NCBI GenBank assembly: GCA_017545185.1
Contig: JAFWQJ010000035.1
Span: 1 to 46,105 of the forward strand
Direction: 5' to 3'
Length of the DNA stretch: 46,105 nucleotides
Source: Oscillospiraceae bacterium
GTDB lineage: Bacteria > Bacillota > Clostridia > Oscillospirales > Ruminococcaceae
This document shows, one piece after another, positions 2 to 46,105 of this stretch. The notes beneath the pieces were generated by a model. It saw nothing but the letters and a program-made list of their open reading frames with translations. It had not been told where the DNA came from and ran no database searches. The stretch's first letter is position 1; each line of letters starts with the position of its first letter. The position numbers and the translations under genes were made by a program.

Positions 2-2384
<2,383 letters not shown>

Positions 2385-2440
2385 ACCCGGAAAACCGGAT
2401 ACACAGCAAATTTCACGAGACTGAAAAGGAGGGATCATCC

Positions 2441-3187
2441 ATGAGTGAACAGGCAAATATCCTTGCGAAGATGCTGACGGACATGGATCAGAAGCTGAAC
2501 CGGCTCGGGGAGCAGCAGAAGGAGCTTGACGCAAAGCTCGAACGCTACTCTGCATTCACCGTCAAGAAGCTGAACGATTCTGTTGACACGCTCTGCAATA
2601 TGCAGGAGGCACAGCTGAAGCTGCTGACGGAAAGCCTGACGAAAATGGGCAGGCAGGTCGATGTCATGGAAAAGCAGGTCGCGGCGCATCTTGCACCGGA
2701 TGTGACGAACACCGAACTGATGAATGCGCTCACCGGCTGCGCAGAGGACTTACAGGATTCCGTTGACCGCTGCATCGAGCTGGTCGGGCATCACAGCGTC
2801 ATGATCGAGCGCAACCTCATGGATGAGATGAACCGGCTGACCTCGCTCATGGAGGCGGATATGCAGCTGGAGCAGGACAGTGCCGACGCGCTTTCGAAGA
2901 AGCTCTCCCTTGCGTTCACGCATCTCTACGGCGAGGTGCTGAACAGTCAGGATATGATCGAGAACCCGGATGCGGTCATTGAGGAGGCGGAGGCTGTCCC
3001 GGAGAATCCGGAGGCAGTCCCCGAAACGATCGACGCTGATCCGGAGACCGTTGACGTCACCCCGGAATCCATGGAAGCAGAACCCGAAAATCCGGAAGGC
3101 GTGTTCATCAATCCCGATATCGCAGTCTTTGAAAAGCCCGATGCAGTCATACACAACGGAAACGAAACGGAGGAAATCATCAGATGA
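2441..3187 (+). CDS. Unknown protein: coiled-coil N-terminus with Pro/Glu-rich repeat tail
   Basis: 248 residues with no family I recognise. Residues 1-165 are strongly helical with heptad-like spacing and long charged stretches, so a coiled coil is likely. Residues 170-245 are an acidic tail of irregular 6-8 residue units built on a P-E/D-x-x-(V/A) theme (PENPEAVPETIDADPETVD and similar). There is no signal peptide or membrane segment, so it is probably cytoplasmic. A strong AAAAGGAGGG site lies 7 nt before the ATG, and the stop overlaps the next start by 4 bp (ATGA), so it is translationally coupled to the purine nucleoside phosphorylase gene. That tight coupling makes a role with the nucleoside enzymes possible, but nothing in the sequence names one. 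Confidence 0.8.
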   Translation: MSEQANILAKMLTDMDQKLNRLGEQQKELDAKLERYSAFTVKKLNDSVDTLCNMQEAQLKLLTESLTKMGRQVDVMEKQVAAHLAPDVTNTELMNALTGCAEDLQDSVDRCIELVGHHSVMIERNLMDEMNRLTSLMEADMQLEQDSADALSKKLSLAFTHLYGEVLNSQDMIENPDAVIEEAEAVPENPEAVPETIDADPETVDVTPESMEAEPENPEGVFINPDIAVFEKPDAVIHNGNETEEIIR

Positions 3188-4014
3188 CAGTCAAGGAACA
3201 GCTCGATGCATGCTGCGCATTCGTCTCGGCGCGCATTGATTTCAAGCCGGAGATCGCACTGATCCTCGGCTCCGGTCTCGGCGGCTTTGCGGAGAAGATC
3301 GACGTAAAGCAGACGCTGGATTATAAGGATATCCCGAATTTCCCGGTCTCAACGGTCTGGGGACATGCCGGAAGGTTAGTGTTCGGGTACTGCGACGGCG
3401 TGCCGGTCGCGGTCATGCAGGGCAGAGTTCACATGTATGAGGGCTATACGCCGCAGGAGGCCGTTCTGCCGGTCAGACTGCTGCATCAGCTCGGCGCAAA
3501 GGTGCTGTTCCTGACGAATGCGGCAGGCGGCATCCAGCACGGCATGAAGGCCGGCGAGTTCATGCTCATCACCGACCAGATCTCAAGCTTTGTGCCCTCT
3601 CCGCTCAGAGGGGAGAACATTGACGCGCTCGGCGTCCGGTTCCCGGATATGAGCGAGATCTACAGCAAGCGGCTGCAGAAGATCATCCGGAAGGTCGCGG
3701 TCAATGCGGATATCCCGCTGAAAGAGGGCGTTTACGTCCAGACGGCGGGGCCTGCCTACGAATCACCGGCAGAGATCAGAATGTTCCGGCTGCTCGGCGC
3801 GGATGCTGTCGGCATGAGCACGGCGATCGAAGCGATCGCGGCACGGCACTGCGGCATGGAGATCTGCGGCATCAGCTGCATCAGCAATCTTGCTGCGGGC
3901 ATCTCGCCTCATCCGCTCTCGCATGAGGAGGTCAAGGAGGCCGCCGATAAGGCAGCTCCGCAGTTTGAACGGCTCGTGCGGCAGTCGATCGCTGAGATCC
4001 ACAGCGTATTATAA
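3184..4014 (+). CDS. punA: Purine nucleoside phosphorylase, inosine/guanosine type
   Basis: 276-residue trimeric-type purine nucleoside phosphorylase (PNP/MTAP family). It phosphorolyses inosine or guanosine to base plus ribose 1-phosphate in the cytoplasm. Family blocks seen are LILGSGLGGFAE (phosphate site), VSTVWGHAGRLVFG, MQGRVHMYEGY, LTNAAGGI, DQISSF, the base/ribose segment YVQTAGPAYESPAEIRM, VGMSTAIEAIAARHCGM and ISCISNLAAGI. The ending SNLAAGI with N and E in the base pocket is the 6-oxopurine type, which normally uses adenosine poorly. ATGA overlap with the preceding gene; SD CGGAGG 10 nt upstream. In this operon it would remove inosine made by the hydrolase if SIH is used, or by deamination of adenosine. 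Confidence 0.95.
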   Translation: MTVKEQLDACCAFVSARIDFKPEIALILGSGLGGFAEKIDVKQTLDYKDIPNFPVSTVWGHAGRLVFGYCDGVPVAVMQGRVHMYEGYTPQEAVLPVRLLHQLGAKVLFLTNAAGGIQHGMKAGEFMLITDQISSFVPSPLRGENIDALGVRFPDMSEIYSKRLQKIIRKVAVNADIPLKEGVYVQTAGPAYESPAEIRMFRLLGADAVGMSTAIEAIAARHCGMEICGISCISNLAAGISPHPLSHEEVKEAADKAAPQFERLVRQSIAEIHSVL

Positions 4015-4044
4015 GCAAAATCGTTCCGGAAAGGAGGCGGCTGA

Positions 4045-4653
4045 ATGCAGAAATATCCGAAGGAAGAAAAGATCCTGAAGCAGATCATGCACTGGGAGAA
4101 GAAGCATCTCCGCAGCCGCACCAAGGTCAACTACGGCCTGACCGTTGATCTGCTGAAGAACAACGGTCTTGATTCCGAATACCGGAAGTATCTGATCACA
4201 AAGGAATTTACCTATCTCTCCGATTCCGCGCGTACCTTTGATCTCGGCCCCTACGGCGAGACGGTCAGAAGCTGGATCACGGAGGCCTGCAAAATGATCA
4301 CGGTCTTTCATGAGCGCCATGATATGCGGAGCCGGCTGGAAAAGCAGTTCCGCGACGATAACCTCTATGAGAAAATGGAGCAGGTGTTCTATGCGATCAT
4401 GGCGCAGTTCCTGCATACGGTCAATTTTTTCCAGTATGACCGCATCATGAATGAGAGCTACCGCGAGGCGGGCATCCGGACGATCGCACATATTCTGGCG
4501 CGCGGCAAAATGCTGCTCGAATATTACGGCACGTATCTGGCTGTACAGGGACAGGCCGTGTTCCCGGAAACGGCGGACGAGATCGGCAGCATTGCGGTCG
4601 CGGTGCAGGCCATGCAGGATGCGCTGCGGCAGACCCGCGGGGCGGAGGACTAA
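4045..4653 (+). CDS. Unknown helical protein in nucleoside operon
   Basis: 202 residues, not recognised. The product is predicted almost entirely helical, charged at the N-terminus (KEEKILKQIMHWEKKHLRSR), with two more hydrophobic helices around residues 110-135 and 150-170 that look buried rather than membrane-spanning. It has no signal peptide. AAGGAGG lies 7 nt before the ATG. It sits 30 bp after the phosphorylase gene and 10 bp before the amidohydrolase gene, all in one direction, so co-transcription is nearly certain. Function unknown; codon usage matches the neighbouring metabolic genes. Confidence 0.8.
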   Translation: MQKYPKEEKILKQIMHWEKKHLRSRTKVNYGLTVDLLKNNGLDSEYRKYLITKEFTYLSDSARTFDLGPYGETVRSWITEACKMITVFHERHDMRSRLEKQFRDDNLYEKMEQVFYAIMAQFLHTVNFFQYDRIMNESYREAGIRTIAHILARGKMLLEYYGTYLAVQGQAVFPETADEIGSIAVAVQAMQDALRQTRGAED

Positions 4654-4663
4654 AGGAGTATCT

Positions 4664-5932
4664 ATGATTCGTTTTTACAATGCAAAGATCATGACCATGG
4701 CTGACGGCTGCGGCATCACGGCAGGGGAGCTGTGGACGGACGGCGACCGTATCAGTTATATCGGAGATACACCTGCGGAGCTGCCCGCATTTGAGCGGGA
4801 GATCGACGTCTGCGGCAATCTGCTGATGCCGAGCTTCAAAAATGCGCACACGCATTCCGCGATGACCTTCCTGCGCTCGTTCGCGGAGGACGTCCCGCTG
4901 CAGACATGGCTGTTTGAAAAGGTGTTCCCCTATGAGGACAGACTGACGCCGGAGGATGTCTATGCCTTTGACCGTCTGGCGATCCTTGAATATCTCGCAT
5001 CCGGCACTACGGCGGCGTTCGATATGTATTTTTATCCGGAGAGCAGTGCCGCGGCCTTTACCGAAGCCGGGATGCGGCTGGTATTCTGCGGCAGCATCAA
5101 CGGCACCGCGAAGGATGTCGAGCGGCTGAACAGTCAGTTTCAGCAGTTCCGGAATCTGCATCCGCTCGTGAAATACCGTCTCGGATTCCATGCGGAATAC
5201 ACGAGCGACGAGAGTCTGCACCGTGAGGTCGCAAGGCTTGCACAGGCAGAGCATGAACCGGTCTATACGCATATCAGCGAAACAAAGCGCGAGCATGACG
5301 AGTGCATCGAACGGCACGGCGCATCGCCTGCGCAGTATCTGGAATCTCTGGGGCTCTGGGAATACGGCGGCGGCGGCTTCCACTGTGTCTGGTTTGACGA
5401 GGCAGACCGCGCGGTCTATAAGCGGAACGGCCTGTGGTTCGTATCCTGCCCTGCGTCCAACGCAAAGCTTGCAAGCGGCATTGCGCCTTTGAAGGAAGCC
5501 TATGAGGAAGGCGTGCAGCTGGCACTCGGCACGGACGGCCCTGCGTCCAATAACGCGCTTGATCCGTTCCGCGAGATGTATCTCGGTGCGGTGCTGCAAA
5601 AGCTCCGGCATAACGATGCGGCGGCACTTCCGGCAGCGGAGATGCTGAAAGCTGCGACCGTCGGCGGTGCAAGAGCCATGGGACTCCATGACTGCGATAT
5701 CCTTGCAGAGGGCAGGCAGGCTGACCTCATCATGATCGACCTGACTGCGGCGAATCTGCAGCCGCCGCATCACATTCCGGAAAGCCTGGTGCTGAGCGGC
5801 GACCGCGCAAACGTGAAGCTGACGATGTGTGCCGGAAAGATCCTCTACGAGAACGGGGAATACCATATCGGCGTTTCGCCTGCGGAGATCCTTGCAGATA
5901 CGGCGAAGCGCATTGCAAGACTGACGGACTGA
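4664..5932 (+). CDS. mtaD: Amidohydrolase, 5'-methylthioadenosine/SAH deaminase type
   Basis: 422-residue metal-dependent amidohydrolase of the MtaD/DadD/SsnA group. The start is ATG 4664, with AAAGGAG 4 nt upstream; an upstream extension in the same frame runs through the previous gene and is arginine-rich shadow. Metal ligands visible are H62 and H64 (NAHTHSAM), a His in GFHAEY, THISET with the third His, and D in LGTDGPASNN. The C-terminus has the usual small beta-sandwich with GRQADLIMIDL. Family members deaminate the adenine of MTA, SAH, 5'-deoxyadenosine or adenosine; substrate cannot be read from sequence. Position beside the SAH hydrolase and inosine-type phosphorylase argues for SAH or adenosine deamination. 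Confidence 0.88.
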   Translation: MIRFYNAKIMTMADGCGITAGELWTDGDRISYIGDTPAELPAFEREIDVCGNLLMPSFKNAHTHSAMTFLRSFAEDVPLQTWLFEKVFPYEDRLTPEDVYAFDRLAILEYLASGTTAAFDMYFYPESSAAAFTEAGMRLVFCGSINGTAKDVERLNSQFQQFRNLHPLVKYRLGFHAEYTSDESLHREVARLAQAEHEPVYTHISETKREHDECIERHGASPAQYLESLGLWEYGGGGFHCVWFDEADRAVYKRNGLWFVSCPASNAKLASGIAPLKEAYEEGVQLALGTDGPASNNALDPFREMYLGAVLQKLRHNDAAALPAAEMLKAATVGGARAMGLHDCDILAEGRQADLIMIDLTAANLQPPHHIPESLVLSGDRANVKLTMCAGKILYENGEYHIGVSPAEILADTAKRIARLTD

Positions 5933-5954: not shown

Positions 5955-7154
5955 ATGTTCTGTATACAATGCGGAAAACAGCTGCCGGAGGGCGCGAAGT
6001 TCTGCACAAGCTGCGGCGCACCGCGGTATGGATCGGCGAGCGCGAAGGCAGCAGCCCCTGAGCAGAAAGCGGATGCCGGATGCAAAGCGCCGGAGAAGGG
6101 CAGCGAATATCTGATCGGCACCAGAAGAGGAAAGCAAATCGCGTGGAGGGTGCTCGATCTCATGGACGGTACGGCACTGATGATCAGCAGGGAAGTCATT
6201 GTCACAAAGCCGTATCATCAGCCGGGCGGCAGCGTGACATGGAAAGACTCCGAACTCCGGCAGTGGCTGAACGGCGAGTTTCTCAACACCTGCTTTACGG
6301 AGGAAGAGCGCGCCTGCATCTGCATGACCGATGTGTCCGATACGGACAATCCGCAGTTTCATACGCCGTGGGGCGAACCGACGGCTGACAGGCTGTTTCT
6401 GTTAAGCATCCGCGAGGCGGAGCAGCTGTTCCCGGATTACGATTCCCGGAAGGTCAAAGGCAGTTCGTGGTGGTGGCTCCGGTCACCGGGGCATGATGCG
6501 GAATCCGCTGCGTTTGTACACGCTGCGGGCGATGTCAACCGGCACGGCACTTCAGCTGCCGGTCCGCTCGGCGTGCGCCCGGCGTTCCGCATCGGTTTCT
6601 CCGGTCTGGAAAAGCTGCGCGAAAATGACAGCACGCAGAAGAAGCCGGAGACTGTACAAAAGACGGAGAAACCGGATTTCACCGGCCTGTTTGACCGGGA
6701 GAGCAAATACGGTCAGTCGTACAACATGGGGACGCTGACGGACGAAATGATTGCACGCGCAGAGCAGAAGATCGGGTATCGGATGCCCGCATCCTATCTC
6801 GAACTGCTCCGTTTTCAGAACGGCGGCGTCATCCGCGATGACGACTGCTGGCTGACTGCGATCTACGGCATCGGCGAAATTGCGGAGGCTGAGAACGGTC
6901 TGGAAGATATGTTTGAGAACTGGATGGACGAGTGGGAATATCCGCGCATCGGCATTCCGTTCGGGGAAACACAGTCCGGCGGCCATGACCTGTACTTTCT
7001 GGACTGCCGGAATCCCGGTGCGGACGGCGAGCCGCCGGTCGTTCATGTGGAAGCCGGTGATGAACCGGAGCAGGCGGAGATCACGGAGGTCGCAAAGAAT
7101 CTGTACGAGTTCCTGAACAAGGTGCTGGCAGGGGAGATCACGGAATCTGACTGA
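5955..7154 (+). CDS. Zinc-ribbon / DUF6273 / SMI1-KNR4 (SUKH) three-domain protein
   Basis: 399 residues in three parts. Residues 1-25 form a treble-clef zinc ribbon (CIQCGK, CTSCGA). Residues about 50-215 match the DUF6273 pattern: WRVLDL, a VTWKDSELRQWLN block, LFLLSIREAEQLF, WWWLRSPG and the closing GVRPAFRI. Residues about 230-395 are a SUKH (SMI1/KNR4) fold: IARAEQKIGYRMPASYLELLRFQNGG, then GIGEI and YPRIGIPFGE. SUKH proteins often act as immunity proteins against contact-dependent toxins, while DUF6273 is common in gut Firmicutes without a known role. There is no signal peptide, so it is probably cytoplasmic. AGGAGG lies 6 nt before the ATG, 22 bp after the amidohydrolase gene. It ends the operon at a strong terminator. 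Confidence 0.85.
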   Translation: MFCIQCGKQLPEGAKFCTSCGAPRYGSASAKAAAPEQKADAGCKAPEKGSEYLIGTRRGKQIAWRVLDLMDGTALMISREVIVTKPYHQPGGSVTWKDSELRQWLNGEFLNTCFTEEERACICMTDVSDTDNPQFHTPWGEPTADRLFLLSIREAEQLFPDYDSRKVKGSSWWWLRSPGHDAESAAFVHAAGDVNRHGTSAAGPLGVRPAFRIGFSGLEKLRENDSTQKKPETVQKTEKPDFTGLFDRESKYGQSYNMGTLTDEMIARAEQKIGYRMPASYLELLRFQNGGVIRDDDCWLTAIYGIGEIAEAENGLEDMFENWMDEWEYPRIGIPFGETQSGGHDLYFLDCRNPGADGEPPVVHVEAGDEPEQAEITEVAKNLYEFLNKVLAGEITESD

Positions 7155-7567: not shown

Positions 7568-7596
7568 TTGACAATTCCGGTAAAATGAATTATAAT
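7568..7596 (+). promoter_or_regulatory. Full-consensus sigma-70 promoter of the CARF gene
   Basis: TTGACA (7568-7573), exactly 17 bp, TATAAT (7591-7596). This is the only promoter in the window with full consensus in both boxes. Transcription should begin near 7603, giving a leader of about 30 nt before the ATG at 7634. Confidence 0.85.
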
Positions 7597-7633
7597 AGAA
7601 TCATCATTTTACAGAATCGAGGTGCGCTTTCTC

Positions 7634-9247
7634 ATGAAAATTTTGTTTTCCCCTGTCGGAGCCAATGATCCGTATTTTGAAGAACGGGATCCCGTGACCA
7701 ATGCGGTGACCGGTGTTCAGGAGGGCCCTTTGCTCCAGATCTGCCGCCAGGAGAATCCCGACAAGGTGTATCTGTATTTTTCCGGCGATGCACCCAGACT
7801 TGAGCAGGAGGATCGCCGGTTCCATAATGCGCTGGAGCAGCTTGTCCCGCAGCCGGAGGTTCAGGTCATTCTGCGTCTGGATGTGACGGACGATGCGGAT
7901 ACAGCGTTCCTGAAGGAGGATTTCCGCACCATACTGACGGATATCCGCAACGAGGCACCGGATGATGCCGCACTGATCGTGAATGTGTTTTCCGGTACCG
8001 ATGCGATGCGGGAGGCATTCACGCAGCTGGCCGACGAAATGGGCGGCAGCGATGAGGATGAGGATGACGTCACCGCAGGGGCTGAAGATATCGCAGTTTC
8101 TGATGATGAGGACGAGGATCCTTCCGCATTCTTTGAGGGCTTTGACGGCGACGATAAAGAGCCTGTACATGTTCCGGACGAAGAAGCCGAGGAGATCGAG
8201 GAGGAGCTTGAAATGCTCGAAGCTGCTGAAAATGCCGCTTCTGAGCCGCCGATTGCGCCGGAAGATGAGATCACTGCGGCAGAGCCTGCTGAGGCTCCTG
8301 CAGAGGAAGAATCTGCTGAACCTACCGAAGAACCCGAAGCGGAAGCCGCCGAAGAATCTGAGGAGGAACCCGCTGCTGATGCGGATGCGGCATCTGAAGA
8401 AGAACCCGCAGCGGATGCAGCGGCAGAGCCTGCCGCGCCGGAGGTCCCCGCTGTTGATACCGCAGCACTGATCGCGGACGAGCAGAAAAAGCTGCTCTGC
8501 GCGTTGATCGACGTGCAGGAATACCGCGCTGCACAGGTGCTCGCGCAGAAGGCGGAGCAGCCGCTTTCGCCGCAGTTTACCGAACTTTTGGACGCAGCCG
8601 TTCTGCGCAGCAGCGGAAAGTGGACTGCCGCCCTGCAGAAATTCCGTGCGCTCGGTCAGAACGATCTGACGACCGGCGTTGCACCTGTGACTGATTATTT
8701 CCTGCGGCTTGAGCAGCTCGCAGACCGCGACGACTGCACCGGTTTCTTCCGTGCCGTTCCCGCGCTGCTGGTCGAGGTGTTCCTCGCGGTGATCCGCAAG
8801 CAGTTCAATTCCGATCTGACGCAGTACATGATCTACGGCTCCCGCAAGTGGGACGAAAACAAGCTTGTCATTGCGCAGATGACCGGCAAATTCAGTGAGA
8901 CGTATATCTATCACACCAAGCCGCATCCGATGAAGGTCGGCGGATTTGTCACAACGGCGCATCTCTCCAACTACATGGAGAATGTCTCCGACCGGAAGAA
9001 GCACGCGCAGATGATCCTTGAAACGATGAAGCTGCGGCAGTATGCGGAGGAAAAGGTCAAGAACGTGACGACCTATTCGCTGTCCGCGACCTCAGGCGCA
9101 GAGATGCAGAAGTTCAATCTGCTGCCGCCGTCCCAGCTGATCCGGATGATCCGCGATTATATCCGGAGCTATACGGATATCTCGCTGAGCGACGAGGTGC
9201 TCGGTTCCTACGAGAAGATGAACGCTGCGCTGAAAGCCGCGCTCTGA
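7634..9247 (+). CDS. Csm6-like CARF protein with acidic insert and degenerate HEPN domain
   Basis: 537 residues; ATG 7634 is preferred over GTG 7622 because GAGGTG (7619-7624) sits 9 nt before it. Residues 1-135 look like a Csm6-type CARF domain: MKILFSPVG start, a DP pair, GPLLQICR, PDKVYLYFS, a DVTDDAD...F segment, and the cyclic-oligoadenylate-site motif NVFSGTDAM (S120-G-T). Residues 137-272 are a low-complexity Glu/Asp/Ala/Pro linker. Residues 275-537 are helical and end as Csm6 does (SYEKMNAAL). Where Csm6 HEPN domains have the RNase motif RNxxAH, this protein reads KNVTTY (K476, N477, Y481), so Arg and His are both replaced. No cas gene or CRISPR array is in the window. It is monocistronic with its own promoter and terminator. 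Assignment rests on motif recognition, not a search. Confidence 0.75.
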   Translation: MKILFSPVGANDPYFEERDPVTNAVTGVQEGPLLQICRQENPDKVYLYFSGDAPRLEQEDRRFHNALEQLVPQPEVQVILRLDVTDDADTAFLKEDFRTILTDIRNEAPDDAALIVNVFSGTDAMREAFTQLADEMGGSDEDEDDVTAGAEDIAVSDDEDEDPSAFFEGFDGDDKEPVHVPDEEAEEIEEELEMLEAAENAASEPPIAPEDEITAAEPAEAPAEEESAEPTEEPEAEAAEESEEEPAADADAASEEEPAADAAAEPAAPEVPAVDTAALIADEQKKLLCALIDVQEYRAAQVLAQKAEQPLSPQFTELLDAAVLRSSGKWTAALQKFRALGQNDLTTGVAPVTDYFLRLEQLADRDDCTGFFRAVPALLVEVFLAVIRKQFNSDLTQYMIYGSRKWDENKLVIAQMTGKFSETYIYHTKPHPMKVGGFVTTAHLSNYMENVSDRKKHAQMILETMKLRQYAEEKVKNVTTYSLSATSGAEMQKFNLLPPSQLIRMIRDYIRSYTDISLSDEVLGSYEKMNAALKAAL

Positions 9248-9258
9248 ACAGAATAACA

Positions 9259-9289
9259 ACAGCCCCGTATCGGCCGGATACGGGGCTGT
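9259..9289. terminator. Bidirectional intrinsic terminator
   Basis: A 13-bp stem (ACAGCCCCGTATC / GATACGGGGCTGT) encloses a 5-nt loop between the converging CARF gene and cobalamin adenosyltransferase gene. Short T/A runs flank it. Confidence 0.85.
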
Positions 9290-9290
9290 T

Positions 9291-45732: not shown

Positions 45733-46105
45733 ATGAAAAGGACAGTAGCAGCAATTCTCTCTATGAGTTTTGCACTTTCGGTCTGCTCCGCATTTCAGGC
45801 TGCGGCAGCGGACGATGCAGGCGGTTTCGACATGAGCCAGATGGGCGGCGGTGACGCAGGCGGCATGGACTGGAGTCAGTTCGCCGGCGGTGACGCAGGC
45901 GGCATGGGCGGTATGGACTGGAGTCAGTTCACCGGCGGTGACGCAGGCGGCATGGGCGGTATGGACTGGAGTCAGTTCACCGGCGGCGACGCAGGCGGCA
46001 TGGGCGGTATGGACTGGAGTCAGTTCACCGGCGGCGACGCAGGCGGCATGGGCGGTATGGACTGGAGTCAGTTCACCGGCGGCGACGCAGGCGGCATGGG
46101 CGGTA
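45733..46105 (+). CDS. Secreted Gly/Met/Asp/Trp repeat protein (3' truncated)
   Basis: ATG 45733 with GAAAGGATG upstream; open to the window edge. Residues 1-27 are a signal peptide (MKRTVAAILSMSFALSVCSAFQ, then AAAA). After DDAGGFDMSQMGGG the sequence becomes tandem 16-residue units of GMGGMDWSQFTGGDAG, each with one Trp and one Phe in a glycine-rich acidic frame. No charged basic residue occurs after the signal in the part seen. It resembles no domain I know. It follows a cellulosomal enzyme and may be a surface or matrix protein; end and anchor lie outside the window. Confidence 0.85.
   Translation, partial: MKRTVAAILSMSFALSVCSAFQAAAADDAGGFDMSQMGGGDAGGMDWSQFAGGDAGGMGGMDWSQFTGGDAGGMGGMDWSQFTGGDAGGMGGMDWSQFTGGDAGGMGGMDWSQFTGGDAGGMGG
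45862..46105 (+). repeat. Tandem 48-bp coding repeats
   Basis: One shorter diverged unit (45862-45900, 39 bp) is followed by four 48-bp units starting at 45901, 45949, 45997 and 46045, then a partial copy cut by the window end. Units 2 to 4 look identical; unit 1 differs at one silent position (GGT for GGC). Confidence 0.95.

Follow-up and report, generated by a model that had tools for sequence, protein, structure and literature searches.

Csm6 proteins of type III-A CRISPR loci carry a CARF domain followed by a HEPN domain, and the table of a survey of HEPN domains lists the Csm6 families as keeping the catalytic motif (PMC3710099). Two described proteins come close to the one reported here without matching it. 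The HEPN domain of Swt1 is perhaps inactive through loss of the conserved motif and, in the same survey, inactive HEPN domains of this kind are proposed to bind RNA, the binders being domains that lack conserved polar residues (PMC3710099); Swt1 differs from our protein in that it is eukaryotic, fused to a PIN domain and not derived from Csm6. PfCsx15, a CARF-type protein whose gene lies outside a CRISPR locus, does not act mainly as an enzyme; its description presents it as a sponge for cA4, CARF-like in fold, and in the text consulted mentions no HEPN domain (PMC13148439). Further background was taken from a 2025 CRISPR classification (PMC12669027) and from a 2017 review (PMC5303251). A literature search with partial coverage returned no report of an inactive orphan clade of Csm6, and an earlier mention may exist.

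The gene studied here lies on an Oscillospiraceae contig of 46,105 nucleotides, which we call the window. It occupies positions 7634..9247 of the forward strand (ATG at 7634, stop codon ending at 9247) and encodes a 537-residue orphan homologue of Csm6 that is catalytically dead by motif. Its resemblance to Csm6, proposed in a sequence-only reading of the window, is borne out by profile searches: the NCBIfam model TIGR02672 matches with 167.9 bits (cut-off 150) in two stretches that cover both domains, and the Pfam Csm6 HEPN profile scores 36.8, above its threshold of 23.4, with the Pfam Csm6 CARF profile just under its own (24.9 for a cut-off of 27.5). That reading would have been abandoned had no CARF or HEPN profile matched, and matches were found. 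The CARF domain spans residues 1-137 (7634..8044, forward strand) and the HEPN-derived C-terminal region residues 276-537 (8459..9244, forward strand), and both folds resemble those of solved Csm6. By profile and fold the protein is thus homologous to Csm6, yet it lacks the catalytic and genomic-context features of that family. Profile names attached to orphan genes can mislead in such a case, since TIGR02672 is titled 'type III-A CRISPR-associated CARF protein Csm6'.

We searched 100 genomes, that of the window included. Fifteen matched: 13 genomes of the window's own Ruminococcus-like genus, each with one orphan (13 of the 30 genomes of the genus), and G059 and G067, which carry a canonical Csm6. 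All 13 orphan reading frames are open. When the orphan alignment was used on the GTDB species genomes, in a scan confined to two peptide patterns, 12 loci came back. All are on MAG contigs, with Ruminococcus sp., Oscillospiraceae, Clostridia or Clostridiales in their titles, and for five of them the title gives an animal gut as source (goat, buffalo, sheep, horse and pig). No relative was found in viral contigs in a search limited to the same kind of two peptide patterns, nor did the plasmid and phage searches return an orphan relative at the sensitivities used; carriage on phages, plasmids or viral contigs, as expected of a defence or anti-defence gene of mobile elements, was therefore not seen in those searches. 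Across 396 genomes of the family, the listed ones including 7 of the window's genus, the HEPN profile matched nine, namely three orphans of the genus and six Csm6-like proteins outside it, and R-N-x-x-A-H is intact in five of these six, with complete frames. In the sixth (L152, G1052 C102, reverse strand), which lies next to csm1, csm3, csm4 and csm5, the Csm6-like frame stops short of the HEPN motif, and may be truncated, frameshifted or an assembly error. At another locus (L150, 8186-8490) a frame upstream of Csm6 translates into SHPSRGRK units that look like repeats, which would fit a CRISPR array immediately ahead of csm6.

The origin of the orphans was examined in a maximum-likelihood tree of 36 rows, made of the 13 orphans and 23 canonical Csm6. 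Two sequences, L152 and L081, were dropped from this tree and from the column counts given below, and the copy of genome G416 (L082/L083) failed the phmmer step and is absent from both of our trees; read by eye, L081 and the G416 copy keep R-x6-H. The 13 orphans form one clade (100/99) and its sister, again with full support (100/99), is the type III-A Csm6 of G024, a genome of the same genus; a 32-row tree agrees. The III-A locus of G024 holds csm1, csm3, csm4, csm5 and csm6, the csm genes looked for, with CRISPR repeats, and its Csm6 (L035/L066) carries RNLAAH. The same genome has an orphan on another contig. Sister and orphans share the CARF and HEPN domains, their order and their fold, whereas the orphans have no catalytic His, an acidic linker, a promoter of their own and no csm genes found nearby. 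The simplest history is that a III-A csm6 native to the genus was copied, or survived as a relic, a single time and lost its His before the orphans diversified.

The loss is read at residues 476-481 (9059..9076, forward strand), where the former HEPN active site is KNVTTY in place of the canonical R-N-x-x-A-H, as the sequence-only reading had it. In the 36-sequence alignment, position 481 is His in 23/23 canonical Csm6 and in 0/13 orphans (11 Tyr, 2 Phe), and position 476, always Arg in the 23 canonical proteins, is Arg in 8 orphans and Lys in 5. A profile alignment to 4rgp places the His of RNPLAH opposite the Tyr of the orphan consensus. The possibility that an intact RxxxxH sits elsewhere in the chain, raised beforehand as an objection, was followed up across the whole 537-residue protein, and no R-x4-6-H was found; among the 13 orphans, two (L026 and L030) have chance strings of this form at unaligned places. 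The HEPN catalytic motif is lost, and RNase activity has presumably gone with it.

The setting of the gene also departs from that of Csm6. Using tblastn with csm1, csm3, csm4 and csm5, we obtained no match in the window or at the 12 other orphan loci (10 of these loci and the window are at least 10 kb, L030 and L034 less than 5 kb). All four genes were present at 7 of 8 canonical loci of at least 7 kb; L153, a canonical locus on a 7,054-base contig, has none of them. At genome scale, Csm1 exceeds its cut-off in one of the 30 genomes of the genus, G024; the orphan-free genome G009 gives a weak match that stays under the cut-off, and Cmr2 was found in 0/30. A search of the window's genome for cas10, proposed in the sequence-only reading, gave no Csm1 or Cmr2 match, an absence that is no proof because the genomes are fragmented MAGs, this one 95% complete in 94 contigs, and a Cas10 could have been missed. 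Unlike Csm6, the orphan was found without type III effector genes among those searched for, csm1, csm3, csm4 and csm5 in the window and Csm1 and Cmr2 in its genome.

It had also been stated that there is no CRISPR array or cas gene. This stands for the window, where none of the other open reading frames scanned, a part of the total, matched a cas family, but not for the genome, which elsewhere has a type I-C locus (L065 1-9167, G000 C66) encoding Cas1c, Cas7, Cas8c, Cas5c and Cas3, with an array of about 15 repeats. Synthesis of cyclic oligoadenylate is not known from type I-C systems. A repeat scan of the window returned CRISPR-like spaced 20-mers only at 45846-46104, and these belong to a tandem repeat that recurs every 39-48 bases and lies right at the contig end. 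An association of the orphan with CRISPR in general was considered and dropped, as Cas1 matches, some of them weak, occur in 13 of the 30 genomes of the genus, with and without the orphan, and no clear link emerged.

On the sensor side, the CARF ligand-loop motif NVFSGTDAM (residues 117-125; 7982..8008, forward strand) has S-G-T present in the window protein. S-G-T/S is found in 23/23 canonical Csm6 versus 3/13 orphans, these being the window protein and its two nearest relatives, and the CARF domain measures 112-113 residues in five orphans rather than 130-139. With 10 of 13 members devoid of the CARF motif, the clade also differs from PfCsx15. The window protein could still bind a ligand, which is unlikely as a function common to the whole clade.

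Between the two domains, residues 138-275 (8045..8458, forward strand) form a linker that is acidic and Ala/Pro-rich by composition and mostly disordered in the structure model, where pLDDT falls below 50 at residues 138-181 and 204-271. The acidic insert described beforehand is thus real as a segment of about 140 residues, but it isn't a run of 136 acidic residues: over 147 aligned residues, 41% are D or E, with a net charge of -59. It is the longest and most acidic linker of the orphans, which range from 63 to 147 residues and from -10 to -59 in net charge; that of G024 Csm6 has 54 residues and a charge of -4.

Conservation points to the other end of the protein. Invariant columns across the 13 orphans number 59: residues 379-472 (8768..9049, forward strand), just ahead of the former active site, account for 35, CARF has 10 and the linker has none. 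This block, with R404, W406, D407, K410, K419, E422, H427 and KPxP, is the most conserved part. Much of it is ancestral, since G024 Csm6 has 46 of the 59 invariant residues. H427 is invariant in 13/13 orphans and occurs in one of the 23 canonical Csm6, that of G024; the K-P-x-P insertion is likewise restricted to the orphans and G024 Csm6. H427, K429 and KPxP are present already in a Csm6 with intact RNLAAH and so did not arise as substitutes for the lost His. H427 and KPxP argue for a conserved binding site. Residues 401-440 are of low confidence in the structure model.

Charge was considered as an argument for RNA binding and given up. In 10 of the 13 orphans the HEPN region has a pI of 7.6-9.2, in L027-L029 one of 5.6-5.9, and the three canonical Csm6 measured give 7.8-8.5. 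The fixed basic residues that differ from G024 Csm6 are R388, K410 and K466, and among the 23 canonical proteins K stands at position 410 in 14 and K/R at 388 in 7 and at 466 in 5. Fixed basic residues and pI are thus found in canonical Csm6 as well, which counts against the argument.

Selection acts on the orphans. Across eight orphan pairs, every dN/dS that could be computed, whatever the region, is below 1; the HEPN values run from 0.06 to 0.30, and all are approximate as several dS are large. Within pairs, HEPN is more alike than CARF in 76 of 78 cases among the orphans (mean identity 0.53 vs 0.37) and in 0 of 171 among 19 canonical Csm6 (mean 0.23 vs 0.39); as pairs share history and are not independent, the counts serve as description. 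Both exceptions (P0001-L024 and L023-L024) belong to the window's own sub-clade, in which CARF dN/dS (0.08 and 0.16) is below that of HEPN (0.18 and 0.19). The inversion of constraint therefore holds between sub-clades, with the sensor well kept in that of the window, where sensing may persist. This inversion is a further difference from Csm6. The orphans are thus more than a one-off: they are a clade of single origin, under purifying selection and without the catalytic His.

Upstream of the gene, a perfect sigma-70-type promoter, TTGACA-17-TATAAT with a 12/12 consensus match, lies at 7568..7596 (forward strand). It had been noticed as the best promoter in the window, and it is the sole perfect TTGACA-N16-18-TATAAT there. 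A perfect promoter stands within 150 bases upstream of 12 of the 13 orphans and an 11/12 match precedes the remaining one; for the III-A csm6 of the genus, the upstream match is at best 7/12. With 188 perfect TTGACA/TATAAT sites of 17-nt spacer in the window's genome, this promoter indicates strong ordinary transcription and no unique signal. Expression would be constitutive, and the protein is probably well expressed. The 17-nt spacer is alike across deep orphan sub-clades (ACAAAAT at its centre). The idea of an operator or regulon behind it was not retained: a pattern search across the genus gave 31 sites in 21 of the 30 genomes, 0-4 in each, 5 of them belonging to the orphans themselves; the promoter in the window departs from the pattern, and no regulon was shown.

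A possible ribosome-binding site, GAGGTG, is read at 7619..7624 (forward strand). Beyond the stop codon, an intrinsic-terminator-like hairpin at 9258..9290, predicted on the reverse strand only, lies between the orphan gene and a convergent btuR-like gene and may be common to both. On the other flank is an opposite-strand frame that we take, from its VQGVGFR motif, to be acylphosphatase-like. With these two neighbours, the orphan gene is probably transcribed alone.

Farther upstream, the window holds on the forward strand a cluster (1080-5932) for an S-adenosylhomocysteine hydrolase, a purine nucleoside phosphorylase and an amidohydrolase, the best NCBIfam models of the last being N-ethylammeline chlorohydrolase and related deaminases, all below cut-off. 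Parts of this cluster are also found upstream of the orphan in close relatives, and neighbour genes are common within sub-clades. A nucleoside-salvage operon was considered, but other sub-clades lie beside different housekeeping genes, among them those for an NFACT protein, an amylase and an HTH protein, and no functional link was drawn. Between the cluster and the orphan, one forward-strand gene (5955-7154) encodes a zinc ribbon, a DUF6273 and a SUKH (SMI1/KNR4) domain. Proteins with a SUKH domain frequently serve as immunity proteins.

What such a protein does was weighed among several readings. The lost catalytic motif, together with the lack of a Csm1 match in 12 of the 13 orphan-carrying genomes, could describe a decaying and functionless remnant of a lost type III-A locus, yet this is already contradicted by frames that are open in 13/13, by dN/dS below 1 wherever computable, by 59 invariant columns across deeply diverged copies and by the conserved promoter, and we hold it to be highly improbable. 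The concentration of invariant columns in residues 379-472, many of them polar, could instead reflect a new enzyme, with a site rebuilt around R404, D407, H427, K429, R/K476 and the aromatic residue 481 and acting on a nucleotide, RNA or another substrate. The near-restriction of H427 and K-P-x-P to the orphans speaks for it, as does the remark in the HEPN survey that in some proteins a His at another position might take over from the missing one (PMC3710099). The occurrence of H427, K429 and KPxP in the III-A Csm6 of G024 beside RNLAAH tells against it, as does the low-confidence model of residues 401-440, which gives them no firm placement relative to the old site; a rebuilt enzyme is in our judgement unlikely.

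In the remaining rival the protein would bind cA4/cA6 through its CARF domain, or pair with active Csm6, and so act as a sponge or dominant-negative that weakens type III responses, such as responses launched by incoming elements. Its case is best in the window's sub-clade, where the window protein and its two nearest relatives keep S-G-T under strong constraint and CARF is more conserved than HEPN in 2 of 3 pairs; probable high expression from the promoter would suit it, and the orphan CARF-like PfCsx15 is reported to sequester cA4 (PMC13148439). Against it, S-G-T/S is lost in 10 of the 13 orphans and CARF shortened in five, the sensor is the less conserved domain across sub-clades, and Csm1 matches in only one of the 13 orphan-carrying genomes. 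We regard this as quite unlikely. The sensor and sponge options of the sequence-only reading are thus less well supported as the function of the clade; in the window's species a sensor role is possible, because the CARF domain is well kept there, and a cyclic-oligoadenylate sponge is possible in that species too. The remainder of its interpretation (Csm6 homology, motif loss, acidic insert, no type III genes found, strong promoter) stands, and its third option, a role outside CRISPR, gives the best fit.

The explanation we put forward, as about evenly poised between right and wrong, is that a dead Csm6 was exapted as a constitutive HEPN-based binding protein, probably for RNA or a ribonucleoprotein. 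The exaptation is well supported, with homology, motif loss, single origin, separation from type III genes, purifying selection, the inversion of constraint between sub-clades and the conserved promoter each obtained by computation; the ligand is proposed on two grounds, the position of the most conserved block right beside the site where RNA was once cut and the suggestion that inactive HEPN domains such as that of Swt1 bind RNA (PMC3710099). Unlike the binders of the HEPN survey, the orphans keep many polar residues, R/K at 476 in 13/13 among them. In the proposed course of events, a III-A csm6 of the genus would have been copied, or left behind, outside the CRISPR locus; the catalytic His of its HEPN domain would then have been lost, an acidic disordered linker gained between sensor and effector, and the gene placed under its own strong promoter. 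The product would be a constitutive, non-nucleolytic protein whose HEPN-derived domain most likely still dimerises, and the dimer would bind, without cutting, RNA or a ribonucleoprotein close to the former catalytic site. By nucleic-acid mimicry, a form of self-inhibition, the acidic linker might compete for that site, or it might merely uncouple the CARF domain.

In evolutionary terms, Csm6 may have been domesticated once, in this genus, into a constitutive non-defence housekeeping protein in which the dead nuclease is the conserved working part and the sensor is drifting in most sub-clades, a view to which we give slightly less than an even chance. If true, this would be a clear example of an effector of CRISPR signalling that has moved out of immunity into a different role. 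The changes involved, namely the loss of the His, the acidic linker and the new promoter, are separable, and a motif-intact III-A sister is available for comparison within the same genus. That the gene was kept under selection with its own strong promoter after leaving CRISPR suggests that it was given a new job.
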